This document shows positions 3,345 through 53,100 of a DNA stretch of 64,000 nt, piece after piece. The stretch is taken from positions 25,124,715 to 25,188,714 of the forward strand of contig CM055819.1 in assembly GCA_029582265.1 (NCBI GenBank), in the 5' to 3' direction. The notes below the pieces were generated by a model. That model was not told the DNA's origin. It did not search any database and saw nothing but the letters and a program-made list of their open reading frames with translations. Numbering within the stretch: position 1 is the first letter of the stretch; every line of letters starts with the position of its first letter. This DNA comes from Zoroaster sp. YZ-2022. Its lineage: Eukaryota > Echinodermata > Asteroidea > Forcipulatida > Zoroasteridae. The translations under genes were made by a program, and so were the position numbers.

Positions 3345-3765
3345 GAGTCTAAAACCCAATGTACAAATTAAAAAATTTCATGCGATGCAAGTACATGTAG
3401 GAACGAAGCTGGTCTGGTAATTATGAGCGAGTAATAAACGACCGTCTCTGAAAAACTAACTGTGGGCGCACTAACAATGCACTTACCAATATCACTAGAT
3501 TGCAAATTGAGGCCTTTATATTAAATCTCTTTTTCAAATTGATAGGTGCATGTAGAGTCTAAAACCCATTCTACAAATGAAACAATTTAGTGTGGTGCAA
3601 GTAGAGGCAAAGCTGGTCTGGTAATTATGAACGAGTAATAAACGACCGTCTCTGAAAAACTAACTGTGGGACCACTAACAATGCAATTACCATTACCACT
3701 AGACTGCAAATTGAGGCCTTTATATCAAACCTCTTTTTCAAATTGATGTGTACATGTAGGATGTG
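3345..3765. repeat. Two direct repeats of about 210 bp
   Basis: Both copies begin with GAGTCTAAAACCCA (3345 and 3555) and end near CTCTTTTTCAAATTGAT. They share the stretch around AATAAACGACCGTCTCTGAAA. The same double repeat occurs upstream of GPCR copy 6 and after the first gap (about 37660-38010), but only one copy is present near 17865-18075. Confidence 0.85.
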
Positions 3766-5071: not shown

Positions 5072-6067
5072 TTACTGAGCTTCAACTGTTTGCATTTCTG
5101 GACCAACTTGATTTGGTTGTCTCCATCGATCACATCTGCACACCATAGACTTGAATGCTTTCCGAAGCTGTTCATATTTGAATCCATACAAGACTGGGTT
5201 TATAGCAGAATTCACCAATGCTAAGAAAACAATTATGTCCCAAATGATGGCATTACCACTGTCACTAATTATATCAAAACTACTTAACAATGGATCCATG
5301 AAGAACCAGATTGCTCCAGGTAACACAAGAATGAAGAAAGCCGTGGTGACAACAGCAAGAGTGCTGGTGACTTTCTTGTGAGCTTGGTGCAGCTGTTGAG
5401 CTGGTCCCTGGATTCCTTGCTCTTCTAGGTTTCTGGCTCCTTGTTTGAGGTTGGCAAGGATTCGGATGTACATCCAAAATGTAGCTCCAACCGGTAGAAG
5501 AAACACTATCGTTGACACAATGCCAAAAATGGTTTTACCTGCACTGTTTTTAAATGAGCAGTTATCAGATTGGTACTGGATGATCATAAAAACTGTACAA
5601 GGCAAATGCACCATGGGTGGAATAACCCAAACAGCAAGTAATAACAGGGTGATCTTTCTTCTAGTGAAGTAGTTTGGATACTGCAAAGGTCGGTCGATTC
5701 CAATAAATCGTTCAAAATTTGCCAGTGTGAGGCTCAGTACAGAGTTGACACTGAAGCAGTTGATAAAGAAATAATAAGTCCATGTACTTTTGTACAGAAA
5801 AATTAATTCCGAAGTACAATGAGTACTGTTGAGAGTGAAATAAGATACAAACTGTAAGGTAATGAATGGATACAGAGGAAAACATGTAGAAACCAATGCA
5901 TCTGCAATAGCTAGATTCAGAATCATCAAGTTGGTGACATTATGCAGTGTCCTTGTATAACATATAGTCACACATACAAGAATGTTTCCGATCAACCCCA
6001 CAATTCCTACAAGTATCTTCACAACCTGATAAAATGTCTGTATCTCCTCATTAATATTGTCATCCAT
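5072..6067 (-). CDS. Rhodopsin-like (class A) GPCR, tandem family copy 2
   Basis: An intact single-exon receptor of 331 residues with the same plan as copy 1: GN in TM1, LAIAD in TM2, ERF after TM3, W in TM4, P in TM5 and NPVLY in TM7. The frame opens one GTG codon earlier, but the ATG at 6067 matches the start of the paralogues and is chosen. Compared with copy 1, loop 1 carries four extra residues (VSYF before TLNSTHC) and loop 3 is strongly changed (DPLLSSFDIISDSGNA). The membrane segments are almost unchanged. This pattern fits divergence in ligand choice, which is inference. Confidence 0.93.
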   Translation of the reverse strand: MDDNINEEIQTFYQVVKILVGIVGLIGNILVCVTICYTRTLHNVTNLMILNLAIADALVSTCFPLYPFITLQFVSYFTLNSTHCTSELIFLYKSTWTYYFFINCFSVNSVLSLTLANFERFIGIDRPLQYPNYFTRRKITLLLLAVWVIPPMVHLPCTVFMIIQYQSDNCSFKNSAGKTIFGIVSTIVFLLPVGATFWMYIRILANLKQGARNLEEQGIQGPAQQLHQAHKKVTSTLAVVTTAFFILVLPGAIWFFMDPLLSSFDIISDSGNAIIWDIIVFLALVNSAINPVLYGFKYEQLRKAFKSMVCRCDRWRQPNQVGPEMQTVEAQ

Positions 6068-7116
6068 CACCAGTGTCTTTGCTCACTCTTCAGTGTCTTT
6101 GCTCGCTGTATGTAAACAATGAAAATGATTCAATCAACCTGCAAACAGTTCAAGTAGGACCAACATTACTGGCAGGAAGCTATATGAGATCACAGACACA
6201 GCAGAGCAGCTTTGAGTAAATTCCAACCGACTGTCAATATCCCATTGTTAACGACCCTGATCTTCACGAATACACCGACTCAGTATGTCAACCAAACGGT
6301 ACAGAGTAACCAATAGGATGTATTTAGCCTTTCCATGACAACTGGTACCACATGATGTATCTAGACGTCAATTAAACCTTTGGCTTTTGATGCATGTACA
6401 CCACACTATACATGTAATGTCATACGTCATTATTATCCATCATTGTTCAGCCATTATTCCTCACAATAAAGCCATTTTCACATGAGTCAAACAGTAGGCG
6501 TTTTCATACTTGGATCGCTTTACCAAAGTATTAGTGCTGGAACAATTAAAAGTCTGTTAACCTACCAACCAACCTAAACTGCACTATCAACCGTTACTGA
6601 AAACCAATATTAAAAAAAAAAAATTAAAAAAACCCCACAATTTTGAAAGAATTTGCTGCCCAGATGTTCATGACTTTCTTTTTTCCACATTGGTTATTAA
6701 ACAATCATTGCGGGAAGTTTACTGATGCTTTTTGATTGACACTCAACCCCTGTGATATCGACTCAACTCATACCCAAGTCATCTTGTACCCAGTTCAACT
6801 CCTACCTAAACAACCCAAGTCAAGTGACTCAACTCGTACCAGAGTCAACTTGTTCCCAGGTCAACCCAGAAAGACCAGCTACATGTAGAAGACAAACATG
6901 AAGTAAAAAAGGCTTGAAAAAGAAATGGCAGTGAAAGAATAATAAGTTTATAAAGTGCTGCTTATTACATTTGTAGGAATGAATTTGTTCGCTAAAACGT
7001 AGACAACATTTTGTTTAAAAAATAAAATGGATGTACATACGTACATGTACATGATGTAGTCTGACTGACTGTGTCTCATAGTATCCTCCTTTAGTACATG
7101 TAATATGTTAAAGGAA
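6068..7116. other. Upstream flank of GPCR copy 2, with GTACC/GTCAACT short repeats
   Basis: No gene is seen. The first 400 bases match the upstream flanks of other receptors. Positions about 6760-6870 hold irregular copies of GACTCAACTCGTACCAGAG, which are expanded at 18655-18895 and degenerate at 54850-54980. TACATGTA at 7095-7102 replaces a plain TA found at 19105-19106 in the paralogous segment. Confidence 0.6.
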
Positions 7117-7819: not shown

Positions 7820-9560
7820 CAACAGGATGCATGGAGCTTATTCAAAGGCAGGTTCAAACTTCATGAGGATGTACTGTAAAAGTCAAGTGATAACTGAGAA
7901 TGTTGACAATTAAGATGCTCTTTTACCACTGTTGACATCAAGAAATTTGCTTCACCTTCAATGACCACCCCACTCCCAATTTATCTTCTTTTTTTTCTTC
8001 CTTTTTTAAAATTTTAAATCACTTGCATTCATGTACAATGTACACATGACAACACCCACTGCCCTCCTAGTACTACATGTACATGTACTACAGTGTACTA
8101 CAATGTAATTAAAGTAGGAAAAAATTGGTGTATGAGCTTTGCATTCCTCAGAACAGAGGTGCCTACATGTACAATGTACATGTACCTGTAGAGTACATTT
8201 GAATTTATTACAGCTCTGTTGTTCAGTAATTAAAACATGCTTTTATTTATTTCATGTCAAATTGCAGGAAATATCACCATGTTGGTTATCGGCAAGAAGT
8301 GAGGTTGTGTCGGGGATATACATGTACATGTATCAAGGATGCCCGCCGCACAACTTTTTGGATCCTAATGGACAATATACAGTAAGGGATTTTCATATCC
8401 TCTAGTAAACTAGTTTGCTAAATATGATGCGATCTACGTGTTTTTACAACATTCAATTATTTTCCCTCGCAATTAACAAATTGGTTTCCTTATTGGTGAC
8501 ATTTCTGTAGTGAGCTTTATTACACGTACATGTAGTTAAACAATTTTTAGTACATGTATGTACAAGTGTACACAGATCCCAACCAATTTGGACTCGCACT
8601 CAGACTCAAGCTTTCAGATGAACTTAGCAGCAAAGGGTCATTCCACATCAAATCACACACTTCCCAAGGTTAGTTTTTTTTCCAAATTCCAAATTAAAGG
8701 CAAAAATATACTCATTGTGTAGACCAAATATAAAAATTTGCTCTTAATTAAGTAATTATGTGAAATACATGTAAGGGTGTACATACATGTACTTTTAAAG
8801 ATGTGCAGGGCACTCAATGTACAATATGTACGTACTTTGTGTTTGCATCATTTGATATGGTGTGACTGGGTGTGACTGGGGTTGGTTCTGCAGTGTGAAT
8901 AGGGGGACCCAGGATTTACTTGGGGGACGAACAGACCTTAGGTGGGGGGAGTGTCAGAATTCTACCTCACTTAGTCTTTTGGTCATGGCTAAGCTCGAGG
9001 GTTAGTTGTGACAGGGAACGCGAGTCCAAATTGGGTTGAGTCCGAGTCCGAGTTATTGTACATGATGATTCAAGTCCGAATTGGTTAAAATCAGACGATT
9101 TTGGATTCAAGTCCAAATCAAAGGTTATATAAGGCTGTCAGCATCAATTTCAATAAAAACAGTTTTTGTAGCAACAGCTTCTTTGTCTGAAGTATGGTGC
9201 TGGTAAAATGTCTAAAAAGTGAAGAGATACAAAACCGACCTGTGAAAGGTTTAGCCTATATTTACTTGTATGGTTTACAATAAAACAGCAAAACAATCTC
9301 CAATTTCCAGCTTTGTCTGTACGCATTCTTATATTGAAAAGTGTTATTTCTTAAAATTTCTTAAAATTTGAAAAAGACAGCATTTGAGATGGAATAAGTT
9401 CACAGAATGTTTGGTACCATTAGATCTTCAAACCAAATAAGCTTTAAGATAATAATTCACAACATTTGTTTTCAGGCAATTACCCATAGTATAAACTGCC
9501 TATAATGCTTACACTAATGCTATTCTTGAGTAATGTAAACAATTAGATTTACATGAAACT
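7820..9560. other. Intergenic repeat block with exon-like relics and an inverted repeat
   Basis: No intact gene. The block recurs at 19206-22480, 36250-37020, 39225-41100 and 55300-57300. A relic at about 8268-8400 starts after a 3' splice-like CAAATTGCAG and reads EISPCWLSARSEVV and later CPPHNFLDPNGQYTVRDF. The paralogues differ by frame-changing indels, so it is not a working exon here. Sequence near 8575-8610 (CCAATTTGGACTCGCACTC) is inverted near 9010-9050, forming a pair about 430 bp apart. Confidence 0.5.
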
Positions 9561-11582: not shown

Positions 11583-13317
11583 TCAGACACATCTAGTCAT
11601 TATGCATTATAGCGCACTCATTGTTTCCTCACTGAATAAAGCTATGGTGACACACATATGAGCCACTTGGTCACATTCATGTGAGCTCCGTGCATTGGTC
11701 CCACAATTTTTTGCTCTTCAAGGTTTCTGGCTCCATGCAAGTTTGGGGTTGGTTTTGTAAAAATTCTGATTTGACTAGATTATAAGCAAAACATGACTGT
11801 TTTTCATCAAAGCTCCTACGATGATGACAAGCTCAGCAGGTCCAGCGTTAAATTCTTGGGGCTTGATGGAGTCTCACATACATGTATGTCCAGCTCAGGT
11901 AGCACAGAGTGCATGGACACAGATAGTAGCAGCTGAGAAAGTTATGTCTGTTGTGTCCACTTAAAAGCAAAGTTATGGAGTACATTGTGAAGTGCAATTG
12001 GCTCCACAGTGCAATGTACATAACAAAAGGAACCGATACACACAGAAACCAATGCATCTACAAGAGCTGGATTCAGACTCCGGATGTTGGTGACACTGCA
12101 GAGTTTTCATGCGACATATGTATGAAAAAGCCAGAAATCAAATAATACATGTACAAATACATGAGTCTTTTCAGACTGTAGTAACCTTGTTTTATTACAT
12201 TCCTTGTAAATACTCTTGGAACCTGTACGCATGCGCACCATGTACACGGTGCACATTCTTTTGAGTCTGGTTTCCAAACGACTTTCTACATGTTGTGCCA
12301 TGCAGGAAAAAGTACTCTAACTTTACACTCTCTCTGCGCAGTTTTCTTCGGAAACGATCGACACGTTGTGAATTTTTGAGTGATAACTCCTGTTTTTTTC
12401 TCAAGTTTCTCTACGGGACTACGACAACTTTTACAATTCGTCGTCCTTCTAAATATTGACTGTTATACTGTGGATTTGTGGCTTGTGCTCACCGAGGTTT
12501 TCATCAGTTTTGGACCGCGTTTCTGTGGAGCTAGAAAACGAGCTTTCCGGACCAATATACGTGTGTAGTGATTGCATACGTCACACGCGTATGCCTGTAC
12601 TGTGTAGGCCTACAGCCGAATGGGTGCCGCACCATCCAGCGTGCGGAGCAGTTTTTCGTACCGCTGTTCGGTGGCGGTGGACGATTGAAGCCCAGACAAA
12701 AGATACTGACATTGTTGGTAACTGGTTATAACTTTTATCTACAACCATCACAACAAGTAATGACGTGATTATCTTAATATAATCATCAGCCATGTTTGGT
12801 AATGCTTTTATAGCATGTGCGTAAGCATAATTCAGTTGAGTTTGATCAGCAAATATTACAAATAAACAAATAAACAAATAAACAGTTAGCAAAAAAAAGT
12901 GAGTTTCAACTTCAAACAGATCCAGTAGCAAACGCACATCAGATTTACAGTTTGAAGGGATGATATATCATTGGTATTGTTGGACAAAACTGCTTCTACA
13001 AGTATTAACTCTATTTGAATCAAGACATGTGTTGTGTCTGCATTATTGTATTAGCGCCCTCAGGGTTGAGGTATGATAAACCAGGTTAGAAATGTGATTA
13101 CGAAGTTCAAGGACATGCAAGCATTTTACCGTTAATTAAGATTGTCAGTGTCATTTATTTCCATTCAGTTACGTATGCGTGTATTCAGTAGAATTTGAGA
13201 AAGAGATCTCCTAAATTCAAACTGGAAGTTACATGTATTTCACTTTTTTCAAAAATGACAGCCTCAGACACAATTATTTCAAATGAAGATTGATACCATC
13301 ATTAGCTTTTACACAAT
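11583..13317. other. Duplicated flank carrying an insertion of about 1 kb
   Basis: The outer parts (11583-11880 and 12900-13310) match 360-600 and 1360-1800 of the first unit. Between them about 11890-12890 is extra. It contains a CpG-richer part (12190-12700), an (AAATAAAC)n run near 12856-12880, and a right part shared with 9780-10020. The ORFs inside are short and show no recognisable domain. It is likely an unclassified mobile element. Confidence 0.5.
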
Positions 13318-13694: not shown

Positions 13695-13857
13695 ATGTAG
13701 TACGGTAAGTTTCACAATACAATTCAACTATTTCGTTTTTTTAATTTATAAATCGTATTCATTACCTTTAACAAATAAAAATTAAATCTTAAAAATAATC
13801 ACTCTAAATGCTAGAACTTGTATTAAATAAACAGTGCCCATTACATTGTGATTGTTA

Positions 13858-16453: not shown

Positions 16454-17446
16454 TTACTGAGCTTCAACTGTTTCCATTTCTGGACGAACTTCATTTGGTT
16501 GTCTCCATCGATCACATCTGCACACCATAGACTTGAATGCTTTCCGAAGCTGTTCATATTTGAATCCATACAATACTGGATTTATAGCAGAATTCACCAA
16601 TGATAAGAAAGTAAATATGTCCCAAACGATTAAATTATCACTGACACTAATTATATCGGAACCACTTAACAATGGATCCATGAAGAACCAGATTGTTCCA
16701 GGTAACACAAGAATGAAGAAAGCCGTGGTGACAACAGCAAGAGTACTGGTGACTTTCTTGTGAGCTTGGTGCAGCTGTTGAGCTGGTCCCTGGATTCCTT
16801 GCTCTTCTAGGTTTCTGGCTCCTTGTTTGAGGTTGGCAAGGATTCGGATGTACATCCAAATCGTAGCTCCAACCGGTAGAAGAAACACTATCATTGACAC
16901 AATGCCAAAAATGGTTTTACCTGCACTGTTTTTAAATGAGCAGTTATCAGATTGGTACTGGATGATCATAAAAACTATACGAGGCAAATGCACCATGGGT
17001 GGAATAACCCAAACAGCAAGTAATAACAGGGTGATCTTTCTCCTAGTGAAGTAGTTTGTATACTGCAAAGGTCGGTTGATTCCAATAAATCGTTCAAAAT
17101 TTGCCAGTGAGAGGCTCAGTGCAGAGTTGACACTGAAGCAGTTGATAAAGAAATAATAAGTCCATTTACTTTTGTACAGAAAAATTAATTCCAAAGTACA
17201 ATGAGTACTGTTGAGAGAGATATACTGTGAGGTAATGAATGGATACAGAGGAAAACATGTAGAAACTAATGCATCTGCGATAGCTAGATTCAGAAATATC
17301 AAGTTGGTGACATTATGCAGTGTCCTTGTATAACATATAGTCACACATACAAGAATGTTTCCGATCAACCCCACAATTCCTACAAGTATCATCACAACCT
17401 GATAATACATGTATGTCTGTATCTCCTCATTAATATTGTAATCCAT
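16454..17446 (-). CDS. Rhodopsin-like (class A) GPCR, tandem family copy 5
   Basis: An intact receptor of 330 residues. The frame is open upstream to 17695, but the ATG at 17446 (MDYNINEEIQ) is the start shared with the paralogues and the upstream extension lies in conserved non-coding flank, so 17446 is chosen. The usual GN, LAIAD, ERF, TM4 Trp, TM5 Pro and NPVLY motifs are present. Two extra residues before TM1 (QTYMYYQVV against QTFYQVV) come from TACATGTA at 17406-17413. Loop 1 is shortened and changed (SQYISLNSTHC). Loop 3 is DPLLSGSDIISVSDN. Confidence 0.92.
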   Translation of the reverse strand: MDYNINEEIQTYMYYQVVMILVGIVGLIGNILVCVTICYTRTLHNVTNLIFLNLAIADALVSTCFPLYPFITSQYISLNSTHCTLELIFLYKSKWTYYFFINCFSVNSALSLSLANFERFIGINRPLQYTNYFTRRKITLLLLAVWVIPPMVHLPRIVFMIIQYQSDNCSFKNSAGKTIFGIVSMIVFLLPVGATIWMYIRILANLKQGARNLEEQGIQGPAQQLHQAHKKVTSTLAVVTTAFFILVLPGTIWFFMDPLLSGSDIISVSDNLIVWDIFTFLSLVNSAINPVLYGFKYEQLRKAFKSMVCRCDRWRQPNEVRPEMETVEAQ

Positions 17447-18084
17447 TTTCAGTGTCTTGGCTTGCTCTCCAGTGTCTTTGCTCACTGTATATAAACAACA
17501 AAAATACTTCAACAACCTGCAAATACATAGTTCAAGCAGGAACAACGTTACTGGCAGGAAGCACAGATTGTAGACACAGCAGAGCAGCTTTGAGTGCATA
17601 AATTCCAGCAGACTGTCAATATCCCATTGTGAATGACCCCGAGTTTCACGAATAGACCCACCCAGTTTGTCAACCAAACGGCACAGATAAACCAACAGGA
17701 TTTAGCCTTTCCATGACAATTTGTACGATGCAGCTAGGTCAAGCCTTTGGATTTCGACGAGTGAAGTCATAAACGTCTTTACTAGCCACTGTTTCCAGCC
17801 ATTGTTTCTCACAATAAGAGGAGTCGTACACTTGGTCTGCATATTACTCTCAGTGTATAACTGAATAGTCTAAAACCCAATCTACAAATTTAACAATTTC
17901 ATGCGATGCAAGTAGGAACGTAGCTGGTACATAATTATGAGCGAGTAATAAACGACCGTCTCTGAAAAACTACATTGAAATATGGGAGCACTAACAATAC
18001 AATTACCATTACCACTAGACTGCAAATTGAGGCCTTTATATTAAATCTCTTTTTCAAATTGATGTGTACATGTACATGTAGGAT
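17447..18084. other. Upstream flank of GPCR copy 5
   Basis: Matches the flank of copy 1, with a single copy of the 210-bp repeat at about 17865-18075. No gene. Confidence 0.5.
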
Positions 18085-19205: not shown

Positions 19206-20481
19206 GACCAGGATGCATGGAGCTTATTCAAAGGCAGGTTCAAACTTTATGAGGATGTACAATGTAAAAGTCAAGTGATAAAGGAGAATGTTGACAAAGA
19301 ACATGCTCTTTTACCATTGTTGACATCAAGAAATCTGCTTCACTTCCACTTTCATTCCCAATTTATTTATTTATATATTTATTTATATATTTTTTAATCA
19401 ATGCATTCATATGCACAAGACCCACTGCCCTCCTAGTACTACATGTACATGTATTACAGTGTACTAATTATAGTAGGAAAAAGAAGTATGAGCTTTGCAT
19501 TCCACAGAACAGAGGTGCCTCAGTATTGAGTTTGTGTCGGGGCTACATGAACGTACATGTACATGTATCATGGATGTCCTCCACACAACTTTTTGGATAC
19601 TAATGGACAATATAAGGGATTTTCATATCCTCCAGTAAACTACATGTACATGTAGTTTGCTAAATATGATGTGATCTACTTGTTTTCACAACATATTCAA
19701 TTATTTTCCCTCGCAATTAAGAAATTGGTTTCCTTATTGGTGACATTTCTGGAGTAAGCTTTATTTTTTAGTTAAACAATTTTCATTTCATACAAGTGTA
19801 CACAGATCCCATTCAGACTCAAGGTTTCAGACTCGGAACTCGGCAGCAACGGGTCATTCGACATCAAATCACACACTTCCCAAGGTCAGTCCCACAATGT
19901 TATTTTTTTAAATACTTTTTCCTGAAAGTTCCAAATTGCAAATTAAAGGTCAAAGGTATACTCATTGTGTAGACCAAATATAAAAATTGGCTCTTAAGTA
20001 ATTACAAATGTATATGAAATAGGGTGAACATGTACTTTTAAAGATGTGCAGGGCACTCAATGCTGATATATGTACATGTACATTATGTACTGACTACATG
20101 TATACTCAGGTACATGTATGTGTACATATAGTACTGATGTATTTGATGTACAGTACGTGTATAGCTACATGTACATTGTACACTCAGCGGTGTGAGTGGG
20201 GTTGACTGGTGTTGGTGCTGCAGTCTGAATAGGGGAAACAAGGATTTACTTGGGGGGGAGGAACAGACCTTGGGTTGGAGGAGTGTCAGAATTCTACCTC
20301 ACTAAGTCTTTCGGCCATGACTAAGCCCGAGGGGTTAGTTGTGACAGGGAGCGCGAGTCCAAATTGGGTTGAGTCCGAGTCCTAGTCATTGTACATGTAC
20401 ATGATGATTAGAGTCCAAATCGCTAAAAATTGGATTCGATTTGGATTCAATTTGGATTCAAGTCCAAATCAAAAGTTATAC
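19206..20481. other. Intergenic repeat block rich in TACATGTA
   Basis: Copy of the 7820-9130 block. No intact gene; the open frame beginning at 19167 carries GVERQSDQDAWSLFKGRFKL but runs out of a hairpin into AT-rich repeat. The octamer TACATGTA and its variants are dense at 20080-20190. At 19641-19654 the sequence TACATGTACATGTA replaces a plain TA at 8410-8411 of the paralogue. Confidence 0.55.
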
Positions 20482-21932: not shown

Positions 21933-22689
21933 AAGGCTGTCAGCATCAACTTCAATAAAAACAGTTTTTGTAGTAACAGCTTCTTTGCCTAAATTATGGT
22001 GCTAGAAAAATGCCTTCATATTGTACATTGAAGGGGGGTGTACACTATTGGTAAAATGTCTAAAGGGCATCTACATGTATACTTTATAAGAGTGAAGAGA
22101 TACATGTATAAAAACAACCTGTGAAAGTTTCAGCTTATTTACTTGTATGGTTTATGAGAAAATAGCAAAACAATGTCCAGCTTTGTTTGTATGCATTCTA
22201 ATGTTGAAAAGTACATGTAGTGTTATTTCTTAAATTTGTAAATTGTCAACAACATGTTCATGTTTTCTTGAAAAAGACAGCATTTGAGACGGAATAAGTT
22301 CACAGAATGTTTGGTACCATTAGATCTTCAAACCAAGTAAGCTTTTAGATAATAATTCACAACTTTTGTTTTCAGGCAATTACCCATAGTAAAAACTGCC
22401 TATAATGCTTACACTAATGCTATTCTTGAGTAATGTAAATGATTTCAGATTTACATGAAACTTACTTGGTGTATTTAAATTGATGATGGGATCAAACATA
22501 AATTGATACATGTATATTTCTGTCTCAGGTATTATCATTTTAGTGCAATTGATCAAATTATTTTAAAAAATAAATTGTTGTCTACCGGAGACGTAAATTC
22601 CATGTTGGAGTGAATACGTCAAATCTGAATGCATATCCACTGAGTTCTATTTTCTTGAAATTAGATGAAACTTTCACGGGTTGTTAATT
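21933..22689. other. Intergenic repeat block, end of a large unit
   Basis: Matches 9130-9560 plus 11260-11460, and 40358-41110 and 56580-57335. No gene. Confidence 0.6.
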
Positions 22690-23439: not shown

Positions 23440-24611
23440 ATACTCAGACTCCAATAAAACAAAGAAAGATGCAGGTTGGTTGAATGAATTCATGCCACAG
23501 TCAAAACAACTGTTTTTATTTTGTGCCTGATACCATTTGTTTGGGCAAACCGGTCACTAAGAACAAAAACGGCAGGTACACCAGACCCAAAAAGCGGTAC
23601 ACCAGACCCAAAAAAGCGGGTACACCAGACCCTTAAAAGCGGGTACACCAGACCCCAAAAAGCGGGTACACCAGACCCAAAAAGCGGGTACACCAGACCC
23701 AAAAAGCGGGTACACCAGACCCAAAAAGCGGGTACACCAGACCCAAAAAAGCAGGTACACCAGACCCTTAAAAGCGGGTACACCAGACCCTTACAACAGC
23801 GGGTACCCTACAAATTGCTGGATATGCCAGCTAAAAACCAAACATTCTTGGGTAGGCCTACACCAGGTTAACTTTACATGTACCTCCATGTCTGTATATA
23901 ATTATAATAAAATGACAAAAGCATGTTTCATAACATAATCAAAAGATACAGTTGCACTTCCACCGATGGAACATTGTCGGAATCATAGCCTCATGAAACT
24001 TGCGAGCGCTATGGCAACCATACCCAAACAAAACAAATTTAATGACATGAATACTGTAATTATTACAGGTTGATCACCACTCACCAAAATGGGGTTAATG
24101 GCTGTCTGAACCCTACAAAAAATGCCATTATACATAGTAGGAGCAAAAGGCATTAACCAACCTTACCAACCTAAAAAGAGGAGGAGCCTGTGGGATGGCA
24201 GTGGGAATATTTTCTAGCATCTTCATTAATCCAGTGACTGTGACAAAGTGGAAGATAAATTCATTAAGCCCGCCTAACCTAAAGTTTAATGATGCTTAGA
24301 TGAGCAAATTAATTGGTTAAGCCTGTAAAGAATTTGCATACGAGCACGTACCTGCCTAACAACCAGTAAACAAATAGCCCAAGGTCAGCCGATTGTTTTG
24401 GCATACAGCCAAATACCAGGGGCCAATAATGAAAGACAAGTGATGAAACACTTCTCACGAGTGAGGGCGCAATACAACAAATATGATGCCAAGCATTTTG
24501 CATAAAGTGCAATAACATGCAATCGGAGAGGAAAGCCCCAGCATGGGATAGAACAATGTAAGTTTACGCTGAGCATAAAGACCTTTTATCCTAAAGGTGA
24601 TAAAAGGAATT
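23440..24611. repeat. Short A2-B2 unit of the split-repeat element
   Basis: Positions 23440-24122 match the left end of the long unit (24612-25177) and 24206-24611 match its right end (30005-30415). An 83-bp stretch between them (24123-24205) is not in the long unit. It sits immediately next to the long unit, with GGAATT joined to ATACTCAG. Confidence 0.9.
23571..23818. repeat. 22-bp minisatellite GCGGGTACACCAGACCCAAAAA in B2
   Basis: About eleven copies with A-run or CTTAA variants between GCGGGTACACCAGACCC cores. Copy number differs among related ends (24739-24870, 41827-41974, 44481-44551, 57607-57722, 58687-58811). The long ORFs on both strands here are produced by the repeat. Confidence 0.95.
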
Positions 24612-27851: not shown

Positions 27852-28224
27852 AATAATAATAATAATAATAATAATAATAAGTGGACTTATATAGCGCACG
27901 TATCCACCAACTAAGTGGTGCTCAAGGCGCATTATATCATTACCCCTGCTCATAAGGCTCATAAATCATTCCTGAAACCATCTCAGCTCCCTGGGGAGTA
28001 TACAGCTCAATTGCTGCCATTACAGTGCATATACTGTACATGTAGGGCTAATCAACCAACTCTGCCCTCACAGGTACCCATTTAACCCCTGGGTGGAGAG
28101 AAGCAATTATGGTTAAGTGTCTTGCTCAAGGACACAAGTGTCACGGCCGGGATTCGAACCCACATTCTGCTGCTAACACCAGAACTTGAGTCTGGTAAGT
28201 TAGACCGCTCGGCCACGACGCTCC
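27852..28224 (-). mobile_element. tRNA-derived SINE nested in the split-repeat element
   Basis: Reverse orientation of the SINE at 13318-13694. The (AAT)n tail at 27852-27881 is followed by GTGGACTTATATAGCGC, and the tRNA-like head lies near 28140-28224 with a B-box GGATTCGAACCC. It occupies the same place in the copies at 47659 and 61941, so it inserted before the element or segment was duplicated. Confidence 0.9.
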
Positions 28225-36012: not shown

Positions 36013-37020
36013 AGATATTAAACAAAAATAACAAATAAATTAACCCTAACTCCCAATGCCCATTTGCTTACACATAACCTGAATCCTCCAAAATTTTTCG
36101 TACATGATGTAGTCTGACTGACTGTGTCTCATAGTATCCTCCTTTAATAATATGTTAAAGGAAGAGACTGCCTACTACTCCCACAGTCTCCTCAGTTAAC
36201 AATTGTTAAATGATATGGCAGGAGTTGGCGGGAGTAGAGAGGCAGTCTGACCAGGATGCATGGAGCTTATTCAAAGGCAGGTTCAAACTTCATGAGGATG
36301 TAAAAGTCAAGTGATAACTGAGAATGTTGACAATGATTTTTTTTTTTTAATCACTTGTATTCACGTACATGTACACAAGACAACACCCACTGCCCTCCTA
36401 CATGTAGTACTACAGTGTACTAATTAAAGTAGGAAAAAAGAAATTGGTGTATGAGCTTTTCATTCCACACAACAGAGGTGCCTACAAGTGCATATTATGT
36501 ACCTGGAGAGTACATTCGAATTTATTACAGCTCTGTTGTTCAGTAATTAAAACATGTTTTTATTTATTTCATGTCAAATTGCAGGAAATACATTGTATAT
36601 TGGTTATTGGCAAGTAGTGAGGTTGTGTTGTGGCTATATCTACGTATATGTATCATGGATGTCCTCCGCACAACTTTTTGGACCCTAATGGACAATATAC
36701 ATGTACAGTAAGGGATTTTCATATCCTCCAGTAAACTAGTTTGCTAAATACATATATGATGTGATCTACGTGTTTTGACAACATATTCAATTACTTTCCC
36801 TCGCAATTAAGAAATTGGTTTCCTTATTGGTGACATTTCTGTAGTGAGCTTTATTTTTTAGTTAAACAATTTTCATTTCATACAAGTGTACACAGATCCC
36901 ACTCAGACTCAAGGTTTCAGACTCGGAACTCGGCAGCAAAGGGTCATTCCACATTAAATCACACACTTCCCAAGGTCAGTCCCACAATTTTTTATTTTTT
37001 TAAAAACTTTTCGAAAGTTC
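36013..37020. other. Intergenic repeat block up to the first gap, with the 85-bp hairpin at 36164-36248
   Basis: Matches 19080-19900. The hairpin is intact. TACATGTA at 36698-36705 replaces a TA at 8378-8379. No gene. Confidence 0.6.
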
Positions 37021-38987: not shown

Positions 38988-41107
38988 AGATATTAAACAA
39001 AAATAACAAATAAATTAACCCTAACTCCCTATGCCCATTTGCTTACACATAACCTGAATCCTCCAAAATTTTTCGTACATGATGTAGTCTGACTGACTGT
39101 GTCTCATAGTATCCTCCTTTAATAATATGTTAAAGGAAGAGACTGCCTACTACTCCCACAGTCTCCTCATTTAACAATTGTTAAATGATATGGCAGGAGT
39201 TGGCGGGAGTAGAGAGGCAGTCTGACCAGGATGCATGGAGCTTATTCAAAGGCAGGTTCAAACTTCATGAGGATGTAAAAGTCAAGTGATAAAGGAGAAT
39301 GTTGACAATGATTTTTTATTTTTATTTTAAATCACTTGCATTCACGTACATGTACACAAGACAACACCCACTGCCCTCCTAGTACTACAGTGTACTAATT
39401 AAAGTATGGAAAACAAATTGGTGTATGAGCTTTTCATTCCACACAACAGAGGTGCCTACAAGTGCATATTACATGTATGTACCTGGAGAGTACATTCGAA
39501 TTTATTACAGCTCTGTTGTTCAGTAATTAAAACATGTTTTTATTTATTTCATGTCAAATTGCAGGAAATATATTGGTTATTGGCAAGTAGTGAGGTTGTG
39601 TTGTGGCTACATGTACATGTACGTACATGTATCATGGATGTCCTCCGCACAACTTTTTGGACCCTAATGGACAATGCATGTGCAGTGAGGATTTTCTTAT
39701 CCTCCAGTAAACTAGTTTGCTAAATATAGTGTGATCTACGATGTTTTGACAACCTGTTTAATTACTTTCCCTACATAATTAAAAGTGGTTTCCTTATTTG
39801 GTGACATTTCTAGCAAGTAAGCTTTATTTTTAGTTAAACAATTTTCATTTCATACAAGTGTACACAGATCCCACTCAGACTCAAGGTTTCAGACTCGGAA
39901 CTCGGCAGCAAAGGGTCATTCCACATTAAATCACACACTTCCCAAGGTCAGTCCCACAATTTTTTATTTTTTTAAAAACTTTTTCGTGAAAGTTCCAAAT
40001 TCGAAATGAAAGGTCAAAGGTATACTCATTGTGTAGACCAAATATAAAAAATGTATATAGTACTGATGTATTTGATGTACACTCAGAGGTGTGAGTGGGG
40101 TTGACTGGTGTTGGTGCTGCAGTCTGAATAGGGGAAACAAGGATTTACTTGGGGGGAGGAACAGACCTTGGGTTGGAGGAGTGTCAGAATTCTTTCGGCC
40201 ATGACTAAGCTCGAGGGGTTAGTTGTGACAGGGAGCGCAAGTCCAAATTGGGTTGAGTCCGATTCCTAGTCATTGTACATGTACATGATGATTAGAGTCC
40301 AAATCGCTAAAAATTTAATTCGATTTGGATTCAAGTCCAAATCAAAAGTTATACAAGGCTGTCAGCATCAACTTCAATAAAAACAGTTTTTGTAGTAACA
40401 GCTTCTCTGTCTAAAGTATGGTGCTAGAAAAATGACTTCATATTAAATTCAAGAGTGTACACTACTGGTAAAATGTCTAAAGGGCATCTATAATTTATAA
40501 GAGTGAAGAGATACATGTATAAAAACAACCTGTGAAAGTTTCAGCTTATTTACTTGTATGGTTTATGAGAAAATAGCAAAACAATGTCCAGCTTTGTTTG
40601 TATGCATTCTAATGTTGAAAAGTACATGTAGTGTTATTTCTTATAATTTGTAAATTGTCAACTAACATGTTCATGTTTTCTTGAAAAAGACAGCATTTGA
40701 AGACGGAATAGTTCACAGAATGTTTGGTACCATTAGATCTTCAAACCAAGTAAGCTTTTAAGATAATAATTCACAACATTTGTTTTCAGGCAATTACCCA
40801 TACAGTATAAACTGCCTATAACAAGCTATACACTAATGCTATTCTTGAGTAATGTAAATGATTTCAGATTTACATGTAACTTACTTGGTGTATTTAAATT
40901 GATGATGGGATCGAACATAAATTGATACATGTATATTTCTGTCTCAGGTATTATCATTTTTGTGCAATTGATCAAATTATTTAAAAAAATAAATTGTTGT
41001 CTACCAGAGACGTAAATTCCATGTTGGAGTGAATACGACAAATCTGAATGCATATCCACTGAGTTCTATTTTCTTGAAAATTAGATGAAACTTTCACGGG
41101 TTGTTAA
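38988..41107. other. Intergenic repeat block with hairpin (39139-39223)
   Basis: Matches 36013-37020 and then 19900-22690. The site of the LINE insertion is empty here (near 40350). Small indels relative to the paralogues begin around 39.6 kb. No intact gene. Confidence 0.6.
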
Positions 41108-41111
41108 TTAA

Positions 41112-41553
41112 CCCTAACTCCCCTTGGGTATTTTTACTAGAAAAGTATCCTGAATTCACCAAAATCCACCATTTTGTCACACACAAAATGCTGGTGTCCT
41201 GAATCCATCAGAATCCGCCAGTGTAGATATTGGACATATCCTGAATCAGCCAAAATCCACCACTAAATTTCTGGCGGATTTTGGCTCACATGAAAATTTG
41301 TATAGTATGTTGCTGCATAGAATCCATCAAAAATTCTAACACATACAAAGTGTTACTGTACATGTACAGTACATGTAACTATAATCCATCAAAATACATC
41401 CAACCAACATGACCAAGCAAGTTTAAAAAACTATTGAAATCCTGGAATCCATCAAAAGTCCACCATATGCTCAATGTGGAGATATCCTGATCATCCTTGA
41501 AATCACACTCCAAAACAGGGGGATGGATTTTGATGGATTCAGGGTGGATTAGG
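41112..41553. mobile_element. TTAA-target MITE-like element with AATCCATCAAAATCC motifs
   Basis: Flanked by TTAA at 41108-41111 and 41554-41557; the empty site TTAATTAAAGAACC is at 22684-22697. Ends are CCCTAACTCC and GGATTAGG. The interior repeats AATCCACCAAAATCC-type motifs, inverted at the right as GGATTTTGATGGATTC. A run of nested TA-flanked inserts lies at 41354-41377. No ORF with a domain. It is related to the elements at 4058, 15416 and 18380. Confidence 0.8.
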
Positions 41554-41610: not shown

Positions 41611-43529
41611 TGCTTTTATGGGACCAACAAAAACTTAAACCATTTGTCAGACACATCTAGATCATTATGCATTATAACTCACTCATTATACTCAGACTCC
41701 AATAAAACCAAAAGAAAGCACGCAGGTTGAATGAATTCATGCCACAGTCAAAACAACTGTTTATATTTTTGTGCGGATACCATTTGTTTGGGCAAACTTG
41801 GGTCACTAAGCACCAAAAAGCGCAAGCAGGTACACCAGACCCAAAAGCGGGTACACCAGACCCTTAAAGCGTGTACACGCAGACCCTTAAAAGCTTGTAG
41901 GCAGACTGCCAGACCCAAAAAAGCGGGTACACCAGACCCTTACAACAGCGGGTACACCAGACCCTACAAATTGCTGGATATGCCAGCTAAAAACCAAACA
42001 CTGTTCTTGGGTGAAGCCTACACCAGGTTAACTTTACCTCCATGTCTGTATATAATTATAATAAAATGACAAAAGCATGTTTAATAACACTTAATCAAAA
42101 GATACAGTTGCGCTTCCACCGATGGAACATTCAGTCGGAATCATACTGGCGCCTCATGGAAACTGCAGCGGCGAAAGCTATGGCAACCATACCCAAACAA
42201 AACAAATTTAATGACATGAATACTGTAATTATTACAGGTTGATCACAACTCACCAAAATGGGGTTAATGGCTGTCTGAACCCTACAAAAAATGCCACCCG
42301 CGCCAAGCACGCCCACACAACCCCATCCTGGAATGATGAAGTGATGGTAACACAAACAAACCAATTCATCAATAACAATTTTATTGAAACATAGAACCTT
42401 GCCATACAGTATAACAACAAAGTGTAGAAAATTGAGGAAAAAATACGTCAATAAAGAGGGTTCTCGTGAAACCATTACATATGTGAAATAATAAGCCGCA
42501 ATGTACCATTAATGAACAACTGATTACCAAGTGGAGACAAATGCATACGCCATCATACAAAGTACAGGCTGATCTCCGACCATTTTAAACTTCAAGGGTG
42601 ATGAATACAAGGAACTTGCACCGCGACTGCACTGGAGGATGCTGCCCAACGATTGGTGTTCGGGCGCTTACGCTCAATGGCGGTTGAGGAACAGGGCGCC
42701 CGGCACGTGAAACACACGCTGGCGGCAGCATCAGACCAAACAATGGTTGAGCCCGGATACACCCAACAGCAATCGCGAAGCATCCACGGCAATCTGCTGC
42801 CGTAGTACCGCCAAACTCGTCTGTATCAACTGGGTCATTAGTACCCAAGTGAATGATTATGAAAGCTGCGGAAGGTGCTTGCCCATTTGCTGAGGTCAAT
42901 CAGCAGAGTCGCCGCAGCTCGCCAATACCTGCCCCACCTTTGCCTTTCCAAAACACTTCCATAGGAAGGCTCGAGCGGGTGTTCTGCACTCCGCCTCACC
43001 ATGAATCCCTCAACTATCCAAATTGCACCTACATGTATTGAAAACAAATTGAACACGATAACACTGAAATAAACACCACACGGCAGCCAATGTGTAAGAT
43101 TGCAAGAATTGAACCGCGCACCATAGACAAGTTACACTATGAGTTTGCAAGTTGCAAGTTGGAACTGGGCGGATGTAGGACAAGAACCAGCATTTGAGCC
43201 ATGGCGTCCCATGCTCACGTAATGTCAGCCTGTGAAAGCCGAGCGCAGACGCGGAAGATGCCGCGCCAATACGAAATGAGTGACCCTGTATGTGATGCAC
43301 TTTTAGGCCTGCCAATGAAACTGTTCTCTTAAACACTGAGTTAAACTGGTACCGAGTTCACAGGGTTCCATCAATATGACAGAAAAATGGCCCCAAACAT
43401 TGGGGGCTAATGGCGATGAAAGCCATTAAGGCACGGACCGGACAGAGGAAGTCGTTTCCAGACTACACTAGCCGAATGCGTGATCCTATGCATGGACGTC
43501 TTGAGCGCTGGTTTTTATTTTTTGATGTG

Positions 43530-44480: not shown

Positions 44481-47400
44481 AAAAAGCGGGTACACCAGAC
44501 CCTTAAAAGCGGGTACACCAGACCCTTACAACAGCGGGTACACCAGACCCTACAAATTGCTGGATATGCCAGCTACTAAAACCAAACGATTCCCAGGTTG
44601 GGCCTGCAGGCCTACTTACACTGTATTAGGTCTTTACCTCCATGTCTGTACATGTATATAATTATAATAAAATGACAATAGCATGTTTCATAACATAATC
44701 AAAAGATACATTCAGTCGGAATCATAGCCTCATGAAACTTGCGAGCGCTATGGCAACCATACCCAAACAAAACAAATTTAATGACATGAATACTGTAATT
44801 ATTACAGGTTGATCATTAACTCACCAAAAATGGGGGTTAATGGCTGTCACCAACCCCTACAAAAAATACCACCCGCGCCAAGCGCACCTGGTCTGAAGAA
44901 CAGACCTGGCAACCCCATCCTGGAACTGATGAAGTGATGGTAACAAACAAAACCAATTGTCATCACAATAATTTTATTGAAACATAGAACCTTGCTACAC
45001 AGTACAGTATAACAAACAAAGTGCTTAAAAAATTGAGAAAATCGTCAATAAAGAGGTTCCGTAAACTTGGCCACATTACATGTGAAAAATAAGTTTCCCG
45101 CAAGTTACTAACTAAACAACTGATTACCAGAGTGGGAGACAAATGTACGCAGCATCATACAAGTACAGGCTGATCTCCGACCATTTTAAAACTGAGGGTG
45201 ATGAATACAAGGAACTTGTATCGCTGACCGAGATGCTGCCCAACGATTAATTGTTCGGAGCGCTTACGCTCAATATGGCGGTTGAGAACAAGCGGCGGCG
45301 TAAAACACACGCCGTGCACAGCATCAGACCAAACAATGGTTGAGCGATATGCATGCACGCCAACAACACCGAAGCATCCGCGGCAATCTGCTGTATCGCC
45401 AGTGCAAACTCGCCTGTCTACTGCAACTTCGGTCCATTGGTCATTAGTACCCAAGTGAAGTGATTATGAAAGCTGGGGAAGGTGCCCGTTTGCTGGGGTC
45501 AATCAGGCAGGTCGCTGCGTCGTCGCCAATACCAGCCCCACCTTTGCCTTGCTTCCAAACACCTTCCATAGGAAGGCCGAGCGGCATTCTGCGCACTCCG
45601 CACTAGCTGTAATCCCCAAACGATTCCAAATTGCACCTATTGAAAACAAATTGAACCGATTATAACAATGGAAATATTTACAGCAGCCAATGTGTAAGAT
45701 TGCAAAAGAAATTGGAACTGGTAGGATGTAGGACAAGAACTTAACATTTGGCAAGCATGGCCAACGCCCATGCTCGGCTTAGATCGTCAGCCTTGAAAGC
45801 CCGCGCTGAAGCTAACGGGAAGATCCTTCTGTACAACACGAAATAAGTGACCCCGTGTGATGCACTTTTAGGCCTGCCAATGAATGGCTGTTCTCTTTAA
45901 AACACCGGGTTAAACTGGTATGAGTTCCGGAATTCACGGGGTTCCATCAAAATGACAGAAAATGGCCCAAACATTGGGGGCTTAATGGCGGCGATAAGCC
46001 ATTAAAGAGCCTGGACGGGACAGAGGAAGTCAGTTACACAGGAGCTGCGCGAATCATTATGATCCTATGCGTAGACGTCTTGGGCGCCGGTTTATTTTTT
46101 TATTTTGTATTTTTTGAAGACGCCTTAGAATTATGGTCATCAAAAAATTGATGTTGTATTATGTGTGAGAGAAATTACTTTCTCTCAGAAGCAGCAACTT
46201 TATAGAACAAGAGTAGCTTAGCTATACTGTATTGATTTCTAAACTAAATTTATTAGAGCCCTGTGACCAGCATACCACTTAAACATGCCAGTTAAAGTTT
46301 TACCAATGTAAAAGAAATACTTGTGTAATGTGACAGCAGTGTTTACACACACAGATTCAAGTTCTGTCGAGAATGTAATACATTTGTATTACATTTTGTA
46401 CATGAAGACATGTACTTTTGACCTTGCAGTAGAAACTTCATAAACTTTACCAATGAGTTAATTAATGTTAATTTGTAGCTACCCAGTTGGATTGAATATG
46501 CATATGTCAAGCTGCTGTGAAGTGCCAATCCAATTTGAGTCATAAGCACATCTTGTTTACTAGCAACCAATTACTTGTGGTCACACGCCAGACGTGTCGT
46601 ATATGTTAATTGCTACCATCGGCCAACCATAGACATGCTACAAGTCCTGATTGATCGGGTCATGCACAATCCACATGTGCGCGATCCTTGAATTACTGAT
46701 TTAGTATAGGGACCCCTACATCAAGTTTAGATAGAATCCCATTAATTAAATGGAAGAAATTTCTAAGAGAACTTAATGAATGAAGACATTGAAGAGTTAA
46801 TAAAAGAATATACCCGGTTGAATTGAAAGTAAAACCCTTTTGTTTCAGTGTAACCTTTTATTGTATCAGGTTTGGTTACCGTCGTCGTCCATCATCTTGT
46901 CAGTCCTCAGCCTTTGACTCTGTAAAACTCATCATCATCATCATCCTCTCCACCGCATCACACCATCCTTCACTTACAAACCTCAAGCCCAGATTGTACA
47001 CTCGTATCATCACCTCAGACTTCAGCGTTCTGTTAAAGCAAGCGGTTGTTGAGCTCACACGCGCCCGCTTTTAGTAGTGATAAGAGCGGAGGTTGGTTTC
47101 GACCGTTACAATGTTACGTATAATGACACCACCCCCAAACTGTTAAAAGTTAAAGTTGATGGAACTGGCACAGACATTTCATCACAGAAAAGAAACAGTT
47201 GACCGCATGCTTCATCTTATTCCAGATGGTTGTAAAATTGTTTTAAACTTGAAATAAAATTGTTTTAGTTTAAAAACAACAAGCGGTATAATTTATTTTC
47301 AAATAAAATATTTCTCTTTCTTTCCATAACCATGATATTAATGATCATTTTCTCAACAATTTACCACAACAGACAAATAAGCTGACCAACGACTAAGAAG

Positions 47401-47658
47401 TAGGCTGGCACTTTGCTTCGCCCCTATAAGGAATGTGTCCATTTTGAGGATCAGTAGGCCCCTATTCCCTTTTAAAAAAAATCATTGCAAATAAAACGTT
47501 CATCCACCCTTTTTTGGTTTCCACTGACAACAGCTCATTGGACGGCATAGAACAATAAAATCACAGATGTTAGGTGTGCAATAACAAATTGAGGTTATGT
47601 AAATCCACATACTATTTGTATTTACTAAAATCAGTGGTTAAACAACTTTTCATTTTCA

Positions 47659-50100: not shown

Positions 50101-53100
50101 GTTTTGCTTACACTGCGAGAAAGCTGGTGACACATGTTACATGTAGCTACTCATGTTGGTCACATTCTATTATGAGCAGCCGCAACTGTTGAGCTGGTGG
50201 TCCTCAATTTTTGCTGTTAAAGCTGGGTTTGTGGCTCCATGCAAGTTTGGGGCTGGTTTTGTCTAATTCTGACCGATTATAGACTCTGAAGCAAAAGTTA
50301 TTTTCAGCTCATGTTCACTGAGCCGTTAATCACTTTTGGTTTCTTAACTTTCCTACCAATGTCTTGGTATAACAGCTCACATGGCCTATACCATGTGGTT
50401 CCTGTTTATTCCCACTTTGTGGGTCAACAAATAATAGTCGGACACAACCTTTGTTGTGACAATCTTCAATCAGTAAATGGGGGTTGGTTTATTATTAACA
50501 TCACTATTTAACAATGTGCACTTAGTAACACAAGTAAGCAGGAGTGGTAGGCAGATATAGGTACGTGTCAATAGTTAAACTTATATATAACTTGTGCTAA
50601 GTTCCGAATAGGGTATACGCAATCACCAACTATTGGGCACAATCAGTAGGGGACCATCGTTTGATTTCATTCATGCGACTCTTTCACCGGCGCATACGCA
50701 TTTCGCTACGGGCACTGCCTTTATACCGAGAGAAAGGGGCGGCTGGTCGGCCCTACGGCGGGGACCACGAGGAGGCTTGACTTCAGCAATGGGTGTCTGG
50801 GGGCGGTAGCCAGGCGTGTGTATCAGACACGCGACCGCGTGCTTCTGATGTGGCGAGCAACCAATGGCCATATCGACGCCCTGCACCATTGGTTCAGAAC
50901 GAGCAGGGCTCTGGACAGTAATAGTTCGGTATATCGCACTGCCTGTCATGGATCCGGATCGGATCGAGTCGGCATAGATTTCATTCGGGAACACTTCATC
51001 CGCGCCGAGATCAGGAAATCTTGGGGATTATATAGAAATCTGGGGACTCTAGGAATGAATAAAACATTAGCCTACTTTAGCATCTTAGGCCAATGAGAAG
51101 CTTGGCTTCCGGCGTCTAAGGGTAGAAGCGTGTGCAAAATCAGGACATACAACAGGTCCTTGTTCCCACATAAGGTAAGGTATTTGTGAAGTGAAGTGAT
51201 TCGAGCAACTTAGAAAGGAGGAGCATGTTCAAGGGAAAATGTTACCGGGCATGTTAAGCTATTTGCTTGGATGCTAGGGTTATTACTGCATGCTGAGGAA
51301 CAGCGAAGCGTGTGGGTTGAGGGGAGCACACCATGCGCATGACAGCTAATGACTCGAGCGGGTCAGCTCACAGGTGACTGTTTGGCCGCGTGATTCACCC
51401 CAACAGCGTTGGGTGAACTCCAGGAAAGTATTCAGAAAATAGACTAAGTCCAAAAAAGGCGGCTCCAAGCCCACGTGTCGCGCGATGAGAGGTGCTGGCA
51501 TGCACGCACGCAGGTTCGCTGGTGTTGCATTGCATTGCACATTAGCATGGATATGCATGAGGAAAAGTAGCGATCCTTGTATGGATTGCATATTCAGCGG
51601 ACAATCGAAGTCTGGGGGGTCACGACAACCCTGGGACTTAGACTGCTTTTGAAATTGCATAAATCAGCAAAATAATGGAAGTGGAAGAAGTGAACTATAA
51701 AGGGGTGCTAATATTTATCAAAATCAAAGATGAATTAAGTAGTTCTTATACATACATGTAGTTCTATTGTAGCAGCAAGTGGTCCTGCTTGGATGAATAC
51801 CTGAGTGTGGGTATAAAATGACAATGTCCACCCTGAGGCCTCACTCTCAATTCACGTTACCTCGGGATGGGAGGCTGACCAGTGCTACTATGGGGCTGAG
51901 GCGCTGCTGCCACCTCCACTGGACGAGTCCGTGTATGTGGTTGGACATGCCTCACCAAGTCTCATCTACTCTGTGACCACCTACTCTGAGCAAGCTGACG
52001 CAGTGGGCTGTGATGTTCCCCAGAGAGCTACCTACTCTGTTCAACAAGGTTGCATGGTAGGTAAGTGCTGAGCCGCCCCCTTCGAGCGAGCCCTGGGTGC
52101 TGACCCGAGCAAGCTGGCATTCGATTTCTTTTATGGTAATGATTTAAGAATTCGGCCGACTTACTTATTTGTTGATTTATTTTCTGCTGTAAACCACTTC
52201 ATGTCTTGATTTATTATTTCCTAAATTAATGTCATTCACTTGTAGTCACCGTTGAGATTGGTATAAATAAATTCATGTAATTGTTATTTATAATACCTAT
52301 TATACAGAATGTCAACCTGTGTCCTTGTCATCAGTTGTTGGTTTCATTCATTTTATCATTTTGGTTATTCCTTGTTTGTAAATCTTGCCTGCCTTTTCAC
52401 CAGCTTTGCTATTCAACGGATCAGGTTATCTGAATATGGCAACAATTTGATGATGACAAATTCTGCGGGCCAGAAGTTAAATTCAAGGGCTAAGGTCTGA
52501 AAAGATGTCCAGCTCAGCTTGTACTGAGCATTGCCCTCAGTTTCAACTTCAAACAGGTCCAATAGCAAACGGACATCAGATTTACAGTTTGAAGGATGGG
52601 GTAATATCATTAGTATTGTTGACAAAACTACTTCTATGAGTATCAACTCTCTTTGAATCAAGACATGACAGTTAGTGTTTAATTTTCAAGTGTCAGGGGT
52701 TGAGATATGATAAGCCAGGTTGGAAATGTGGTTTACCAAAGTTCAAAGAACATGCAAAAATTTTTACCATTAACCAAGATTGTTGTCAGTGTCATTTACA
52801 AATGTATTTCCATTCAGTTATGTGTGTATTCAGTTTAATGTGGAATTTAAGAAAGAGAACTCTTTCCTAAATTCAAACTAGAAGTTATTTCACTTTTTTT
52901 TTAAATGACAGAGCTTCGGACACAATTATTTCAAGTCAAGATTGATACCATCGTTAGCTTTTACACCTAGTAAAGTTCACAATACAATTCAACCAAATTT
53001 GGCTATTTTTGATTTATAACTTCATCCTATGTACCATTAACAAATCAAAATTAAATCTTAAAAATAATTGTCTTGCACTAAATTCTAGAACTCCTATTCA

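Follow-up and report, generated by a model that had tools for sequence, protein, structure and literature searches.

The word TACATGTA in a sea star genome is most likely an excision footprint of CA-ended Tc1/mariner-type transposons

Ciliate internal eliminated sequences are TA-bounded germline sequences, derived from Tc1/mariner elements, whose developmental excision leaves a single TA. Unlike in ciliates, the genome of the sea star Zoroaster sp. YZ-2022 itself bears what is most likely an excision scar, the eight-letter word TACATGTA, which we analyzed in a window of 64,000 nucleotides (contig 4, or C4, 25.12–25.19 Mb; CM055819.1 of assembly GCA_029582265.1) and across the 1.0-Gb genome. 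Transposases of the Tc1/mariner superfamily are described to cut two to three bases within the 5' ends of their elements, Tc1 to leave two-base, non-complementary 3' overhangs, and fragments of the terminal inverted repeat (TIR) to remain, at times, beside both TAs (PMC2170065, PMC4490562, PMC1925063); the cuts are described as staggered, and footprints of 2–4 bases are reported for relatives (PMC2170065, PMC7913693, PMC1925063, PMC4490562). The typical footprint of Tc1 in the C. elegans soma is given as +4 (PMC13148408), that of Sleeping Beauty and Frog Prince as C(A/T)GTA, or +5 (PMC3878927), and those of the zebrafish element ZB as 0–3 bases (PMC7913693). As with Tc1 and Sleeping Beauty/Frog Prince, a TA duplication in the sea star encloses what appear to be a few terminal element bases, and a CAG/CTG scar occurs at TA here too. 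As with Stowaway/Osmar5 (PMC1925063), TIR-like fragments of 1–4 bases stand beside the TAs, sites can show several footprints, and an old footprint can apparently receive a new insertion; the Stowaway/Osmar5 case concerns a few footprints at a single intron, whereas the word is present 393,335 times in the sea star genome. Excision footprints, usually encountered singly, are already known, but their dominant 2 + 2 form here, a second word and their scale are not described in the literature searched; among the matches listed in full-text literature on Tc1 footprints, echinoderm transposon footprints and over-represented palindromes, there was no description of the word or its chains.

Within the window, TACATGTA occurs 90 times, against 2.1, 3.9 and 6.2 expected at order 1, 2 and 3, respectively, and 74 of its 82 chains are single units while eight have two units. 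A random sample of 20 stretches of 10 kb (L005–L024; 200 kb in total) contains 133 copies, about 9 being expected, and across 18 of the random stretches the word ranks first among non-microsatellite palindromic octamers. Scaling the order-2 expectation of 9.4 per 200 kb from these stretches yields ~47,000 for the genome, and the reversed word ATGTACAT, a conservative control because chains of TACATGTA themselves generate it, occurs 190,587 times. Judged by these two reference values, TACATGTA exceeds expectation genome-wide by roughly 200,000 to 350,000 copies. The excess of one-mismatch forms gives, as a rough estimate, a mean age of ~0.056 substitutions per site for the putative scars.

We compared copies of duplicated segments, all within the one assembly. 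Among window copies aligned at an identity of at least 78%, length six was over-represented, with 31 clean differences, compared with 6 at length 5 and 10 at length 7; the CATGTA class accounted for 16 of the 31, every other class for three at most. Extending the comparison to the window plus 78 loci (L005–L082; 79 sequences, 337,702 bases), with insertions of 4–40 bases counted where their flanks were clean and known tandem arrays excluded, gave 75 six-base rows, 44 of which duplicate TA, 35 of these being CATG. As the original prediction had anticipated, the CATGTA rotation class (35 of 75 rows) far exceeds all other hexamers, the runner-up class having four rows. When rows describing one site on either strand were merged by script, 41 TA-duplicating six-base sites remained, comprising 32 CATG, two GGCC and seven other words once each. 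In a looser count, TA was compatible with 37 of 72 six-base insertions, and the second dinucleotide, AC, with 18, mostly the same events shifted. Seven of the eight pairs of plain TA and TACATGTA from which the original prediction had started are exact (23875–23882/24937–24938, 44649–44656/24951–24952, 43030–43037/25886–25887, 30148–30155/24349–24350, 36698–36705/8378–8379, 39470–39477/36496–36497 and 7095–7102/19105–19106); for the eighth, 19641–19654, the partner TA lies at 8411–8412 rather than at 8410–8411, which reads CT.

The direction of the change follows from how the two forms are distributed. Sixteen CATG sites are covered by at least four clean copies; filled copies are outnumbered by empty ones at 13 of them, equal them in number at one and prevail at two, and the prevalence of minority sites identifies the differences as gains. 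Moreover, in a dispersed ~630-bp TTAA element (36 copies, mean identity 96.6%) with 24 insertions, the sole insertion of five bases or more is a TACATG gain at TA, present in one copy of the 36. TACATGTA is therefore mostly gained, at TA, and also outside the gene cluster of the window. Were the word instead ancestral and lost by deletion between its two TAs, repeats of TA six bases apart could mediate the loss, and the two sites with a filled majority would be as expected. Yet the 13 minority sites and the single dispersed copy run against such loss, and few six-base differences come from the remaining TANNNNTA words, which make up 362 of the 452 in the window, so that deletion would need specificity for TACATGTA; we consider this extremely unlikely. 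A functional protein-binding motif under selection, for instance a transcription factor site, would agree with the palindromic form and with the existence of CATG-binding proteins (of the BEN-domain type; PMC11472053), but the word arises whole, as six inserted bases that duplicate TA, is often confined to a single copy, occurs in dispersed repeats and is sparse in reading frames (2 chains against 8.9 expected, six frames counted). Selection on a motif is barely credible as its source.

The original prediction had further held that empty copies lack CATG at the site, which would leave slippage without a starting repeat. Indeed, at 23 of the 32 CATG sites no CATG lies close to the TA of the empty copy, so that insertion is not restricted to pre-existing CATG; the other nine gains have one in their vicinity. 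Slippage may explain some chain growth at these nine, and a (CATGTA)n or (ATGTAC)n microsatellite undergoing replication slippage would also be in keeping with the two-unit chains of the window and with chains of up to four units in one random stretch (L013). As a general origin such slippage is very unlikely, given the 23 gains at a plain TA, the predominance of single units and the occurrence of chains that mix different units with only TA in common, which slippage does not produce. What varies here is not whole units in existing arrays, as in a microsatellite, as both the gains at plain TA and the mixed chains attest.

These mixed chains, in which units share their TAs, number 20 over 264 kb, while order-2 shuffles give 0.3; the list of units used for this count was composed post hoc, after data inspection. 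The original prediction had described chains of CATG, and CATG units are indeed present in them, but mixed with others. At one random locus (L005), for example, the composite TA-GGCC-TA-CTG-TA-CATG-TA stands against a plain TA in an inverted sister copy, and the TA at 8378 is found as TA, with CAG, or with CATG + CAG. The TA at 7872 is empty in two copies and carries CTG in four, CAATG in one and TAGTGTA in one further copy.

Shorter and longer relatives of the insert, which together with a second word go beyond the CATG gains of the original prediction, occur at TA as well. Among merged TA-duplicating sites, four of the eight four-base gains are CA/TG, three of the four five-base gains are CAG/CTG, the five seven-base gains include CAATG/CATTG three times and CACTG/CAGTG once, and the four eight-base gains include CAAATG and CACATG; irrespective of TA, rows of length 4, 5, 7 and 8 number 111, 76, 30 and 30 in the 79 sequences. 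The junctions are thus variable while the outer bases are kept (CA, CAG/CTG, CATG, CAATG, CACTG, CAAATG). In agreement, TACA and TGTA separated by 0, 1, 2 or 3 inner bases occur 90, 18, 12 and 12 times in the window, with 3.3–4.0 expected, and among 16 end types CA shows by far the largest TA-XY..yx-TA excess there, other types being small (GG, 5 against 0.1 expected; GT, 5 against 0.6). In the random stretches, the excess of TACAATGTA is largely due to one tandem array (22 of 41 copies in L008). The second word, TAGGCCTA, is also a dispersed TA-bounded palindrome; it ranks second among the non-microsatellite palindromic octamers of 18 random stretches (20 against 1.4 expected), occurs 21 times in the full 200 kb (1.4 expected) and is cleanly gained at TA at two places (L005:5179 and L041:837). 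A weaker excess was seen for TACCGGTA (8 against 1.6 in random stretches).

Resident elements with fitting ends are present in the genome. Matches to the DDE_3 transposase domain, of which 150 were scored out of 1709 candidates, are in many cases stop-free and fall into groups of near-equal score, and a TIR pair was found in 12 of 16 transposase stretches examined. One family of 2.2 kb (L025–L027; members 99% alike) has CA...TG ends, CAGTTTTTCTC, with the TIR CAGTTTTTCTCAATCGC behind TA and a predicted 377-residue frame matching DDE_3. Another (L034–L035; 1.6 kb) has TACACTGCTC ends with an ambiguous TA duplication and a putative Tc3-type frame of 353 residues that matches DDE_3 and HTH_Tnp_Tc3_2, and other families end in TAGG or TAAACC. 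In addition, seeking breaks in copies of the G protein-coupled receptor (GPCR) genes of the window detected a 331-bp element in the copy at C4:39.52 Mb (L080), where it reads GCTA-CAATCCCGGCCAAA...TTTGGCCGGGATTG-TAGATTC; at window position 5912–5913 the corresponding context is GCTAGATTC, the one occupied/empty pair obtained. Judged by their letters, the ends of this element, CAA...TTG, fit CATG (2 + 2), CAATG (3 + 2) and CATTG (2 + 3). Perfect ends of its family, TACAATCCCGGCCAAA, occur 845 times genome-wide (419 + 426 by strand), compared with none for the reversed control. In the first 100 places listed, and with pairing assumed, neighboring CAATCCC ends of opposite orientation lie 138 bases to ~5 kb apart. 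No autonomous CAATCCC member was identified, no transposase frame was seen in a 501-base piece lying within a 1.5-kb copy, and no real copy of the CAATCCC end, at up to four mismatches, was present outside L080 in the loci scanned. Two further small copies of the CAATCCCGGCC family, to which L080 belongs, are both TA-flanked (L085 and L086). As separate observations, these two (C1:46.365 and 46.602 Mb) lie in inverted copies of one duplicated segment and share a single CAATCCCGGCC insertion, and three opposite CAATCCC end pairs on C1 (13.18, 19.38 and 49.23 Mb) lie ~4.9–5.1 kb apart, possibly a larger family member. With the CAGTTTTTCTC and CAATCCCGGCCAAA families, elements that target TA and end in CA...TG do exist, and none of three findings named beforehand as contradicting a footprint was made: other hexamers are not inserted equally often, insertion is not confined to the vicinity of CATG, and matching elements are not lacking. 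The interpretation of the word as an excision footprint is thereby supported.

Because of the gain at TA, its direction, the related inserts, the mixed chains and the residents with fitting ends, we conclude that TACATGTA is most likely the excision footprint of CA-ended Tc1/mariner-type transposons. A CA...TG-ended element would once have occupied each scarred TA, a former presence that we infer from the scar. Its transposase would cut so that each flank keeps a 3' overhang of roughly two bases, CA in both cases, and the two would be unable to pair; end joining that copies both overhangs would then yield TA-CA-TG-TA, with two bases retained per end. Keeping a single overhang would give a +4 scar, a three-base cut a +5 scar (CAG/CTG), and an extra base on one side a +7 scar (CAA + TG or CA + TTG), as would be expected of the CAATCCC family. 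Joining in the sea star probably proceeds mainly by copying both overhangs, and an X-family polymerase is a candidate for filling them. As the terminal CA would be common to many families, one word could accumulate over a long time, and each scar would supply two TAs for the next insertion.

Several observations weigh against this conclusion. No pair of loci, one occupied and one scarred with TACATGTA, was found among the copies compared. The 200 kb of random stretches contain three candidate CA-ended elements (L006, L024 and L016), two of them with ambiguous ends, so that candidate residents are ~40 times rarer there than scars, and scans of the window for inverted repeats and for TA-bounded TIRs revealed no CA...TG-ended resident; these resident scans rest on five known ends and long TIRs and will miss other elements. 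A GG...CC-ended element that could account for TAGGCCTA was not found among the elements identified. The density of TACATGTA in the random stretches is highly uneven, from 0 (L009, L014 and L020) to 41 per 10 kb (L013). Besides the nine gains near existing CATG and the two sites with a filled majority, the seven words other than CATG and GGCC at six-base sites have to be counted here, and the outcomes at 7872 might also stem from one scar changed by small indels. Moreover, +6 CATG dominates, with 32 sites against three for +5 CAG/CTG and four for +4 CA/TG, and the +4 words TACATA/TATGTA show no excess (55 observed and 67 expected in the window, 228 and 224 in 200 kb). Read as two bases per end, this scar differs from the published footprints of Tc1 (+4), Sleeping Beauty (+5) and ZB (0–3 bases); departing from the original prediction, +6 is not the usual scar of Tc1-type elements, for which +4 (Tc1, C. 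elegans soma) or +5 (Sleeping Beauty) is typical. The dominance of +6 makes the resemblance to the classical Tc1 scar weaker but does not count against excision as such.

The scarcity of residents, ~40 scars per candidate in random stretches and no resident in the window, and the uniformity of the insert (CATG at 32 of the 41 six-base TA sites) would also suit a TA-directed process that inserts a tiny palindromic unit and never involves a resident transposon, for example a cut at TA by a transposase or domesticated nuclease, after which an end-joining polymerase would add a fixed short filler. Against such direct insertion, the variants are constant outside (CA, TG) and variable inside, like imperfectly joined element ends; there is also a second word, GGCC; CAG/CTG occurs at the same TAs and is known as a scar of the superfamily; and resident elements carry exactly such ends. 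We therefore regard direct insertion as unlikely and retain excision as the probable source.

A more far-reaching proposal is offered tentatively, our doubts being somewhat stronger than our confidence: that nearly every Tc1/mariner-type insertion has been erased by near-uniform germline fill-in, leaving a few thousand residents beside several hundred thousand TA-CATG-TA and TA-GGCC-TA scars. If so, the scars would form a dated record of hit-and-run transposition. If the word is an excision footprint, its eight letters would serve as a genome-wide counter of germline excision, reporting its place, frequency, joining and age. Loss by excision, not decay, would then govern a transposon superfamily in this genome, and a strong sequence bias of an animal genome would be explained without selection on the word.

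Table 1. Sites in the window at which TA carries or lacks an insert, with the state of related copies ("empty" denotes plain TA)
Position	Strand	Observation
3392..3399	.	TACATGTA gained at TA; TA in three clean sister copies
5912..5913	.	Empty TA; GPCR copy at C4:39.52 Mb occupied by the 331-bp element (L080, 45–375)
6880..6887	.	TACATGTA at TA; L041 and L042 also filled; 18.9-kb copy and L043 empty
7095..7102	.	TACATGTA in a single copy; six others cleanly empty
7872..7878	.	TACTGTA (+5); TA empty in 36.3-kb and 39.3-kb copies; TACAATGTA at 19258–19266
8378..8384	.	TACAGTA (+5); TA empty in 19.6-kb and 55.7-kb copies; TACATGTACAGTA at 36698
13230..13237	.	TACATGTA in one copy; six other aligned copies empty (in one, gap one base shorter)
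17406..17413	.	TACATGTA in a single copy; three others cleanly empty (one substitution at the junction)
18067..18080	.	TACATGTACATGTA; TACATGTA in three copies; second unit adjoins pre-existing CATG
19258..19266	.	TACAATGTA (+7); TA shared with 7872–7878
19641..19654	.	TACATGTACATGTA; plain TA in three sister copies (8411–8412, near 36737, near 39713)
22072..22079	.	TACATGTA in a single copy; two others cleanly empty
23875..23882	.	TACATGTA in a single copy; three others cleanly empty
28032..28044	.	TACTGTACATGTA in a dispersed SINE-like repeat; TA only in L006, L007 and L010; TAACTGTA in L019
30148..30155	.	TACATGTA; clean empty copy at 24.3 kb
36399..36406	.	TACATGTA; clean empty copy at 39.4 kb
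36589..36597	.	TACATTGTA (+7); TA in 39.6-kb copy
36698..36710	.	TACATGTACAGTA, CATG and CAG units on a shared TA; TA only in two copies
39470..39477	.	TACATGTA; TA in 36.5-kb copy
41354..41377	.	Mixed chain TA-CTG-TA-CATG-TA-CAG-TA-CATG-TA; no aligned sister copy
43030..43037	.	TACATGTA; two related copies cleanly empty
44649..44656	.	TACATGTA; three related copies cleanly empty
51753..51760	.	TACATGTA; TA in 32.0-kb copy
52797..52806	.	TACAAATGTA (+8); TA in the compared sister copies

Other candidates for resident elements were set aside. Matches of the inverted-repeat and TIR scans in the window came from TACATGTA chains, from a tandem array and from portions of TTAA-type elements, or were weak pairs due to chance, and a 92-bp perfect palindrome in L021 that starts with TACATGTA is no element but an AT-centred inverted repeat. 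Insertions of more than 40 bases in the locus alignments included no convincing TA element. A 1786-bp insert in a GPCR copy (C4:25222402–25224189), with the TIR GGGTCATTCCACC / GGGTCATTCCACCAGGTTGGG and a four-base duplication, ATAA, is of another type, as are a TTAA element in another sister copy and a sister-copy insert with the TIR (T)GACATAAAAC and a duplication that may be TA or ATAT. PF01359 matched nothing in the genome, but as its controls were equally blank, the search is uninformative.

The window contains tandem intronless class-A GPCR genes, whose protein matches are led by Asterias amurensis (~60%), followed by Patiria and Acanthaster. A 3.1-kb piece of it gave 46 matches at E = 0 (fragments unmerged; 40 candidates scored), 39 of them on C4 at 24.7–25.3 Mb, which holds a large cluster of class-A GPCR copies; further copies lie on C9 at 3.84 Mb and on C4 at 39.52 Mb. 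A 69-bp satellite unit is repeated at window positions 1–324 (4.7 copies) and 22687–23358 (9.7 copies), and a TTAA-flanked element of ~620 bp (7163–7790), with the TIR CCAGTTCACGTCGG, belongs to a young dispersed family (36 copies, mean identity 96.6%). An element with CCCTCCTA...TAGGAGGG ends stands at a TTAT/TTAA-like site at 35108–35704 and 38013–38679. Judged by eye, an insert of ~390 bases that resembles a tRNA-type short interspersed nuclear element (SINE), with an ATT-rich tail, is present in both orientations (13315–13704, 27853–28223 and 47657–48051). A reverse transcriptase fragment (RVT_1; 20408–21112) lies within a 1.45-kb insert.
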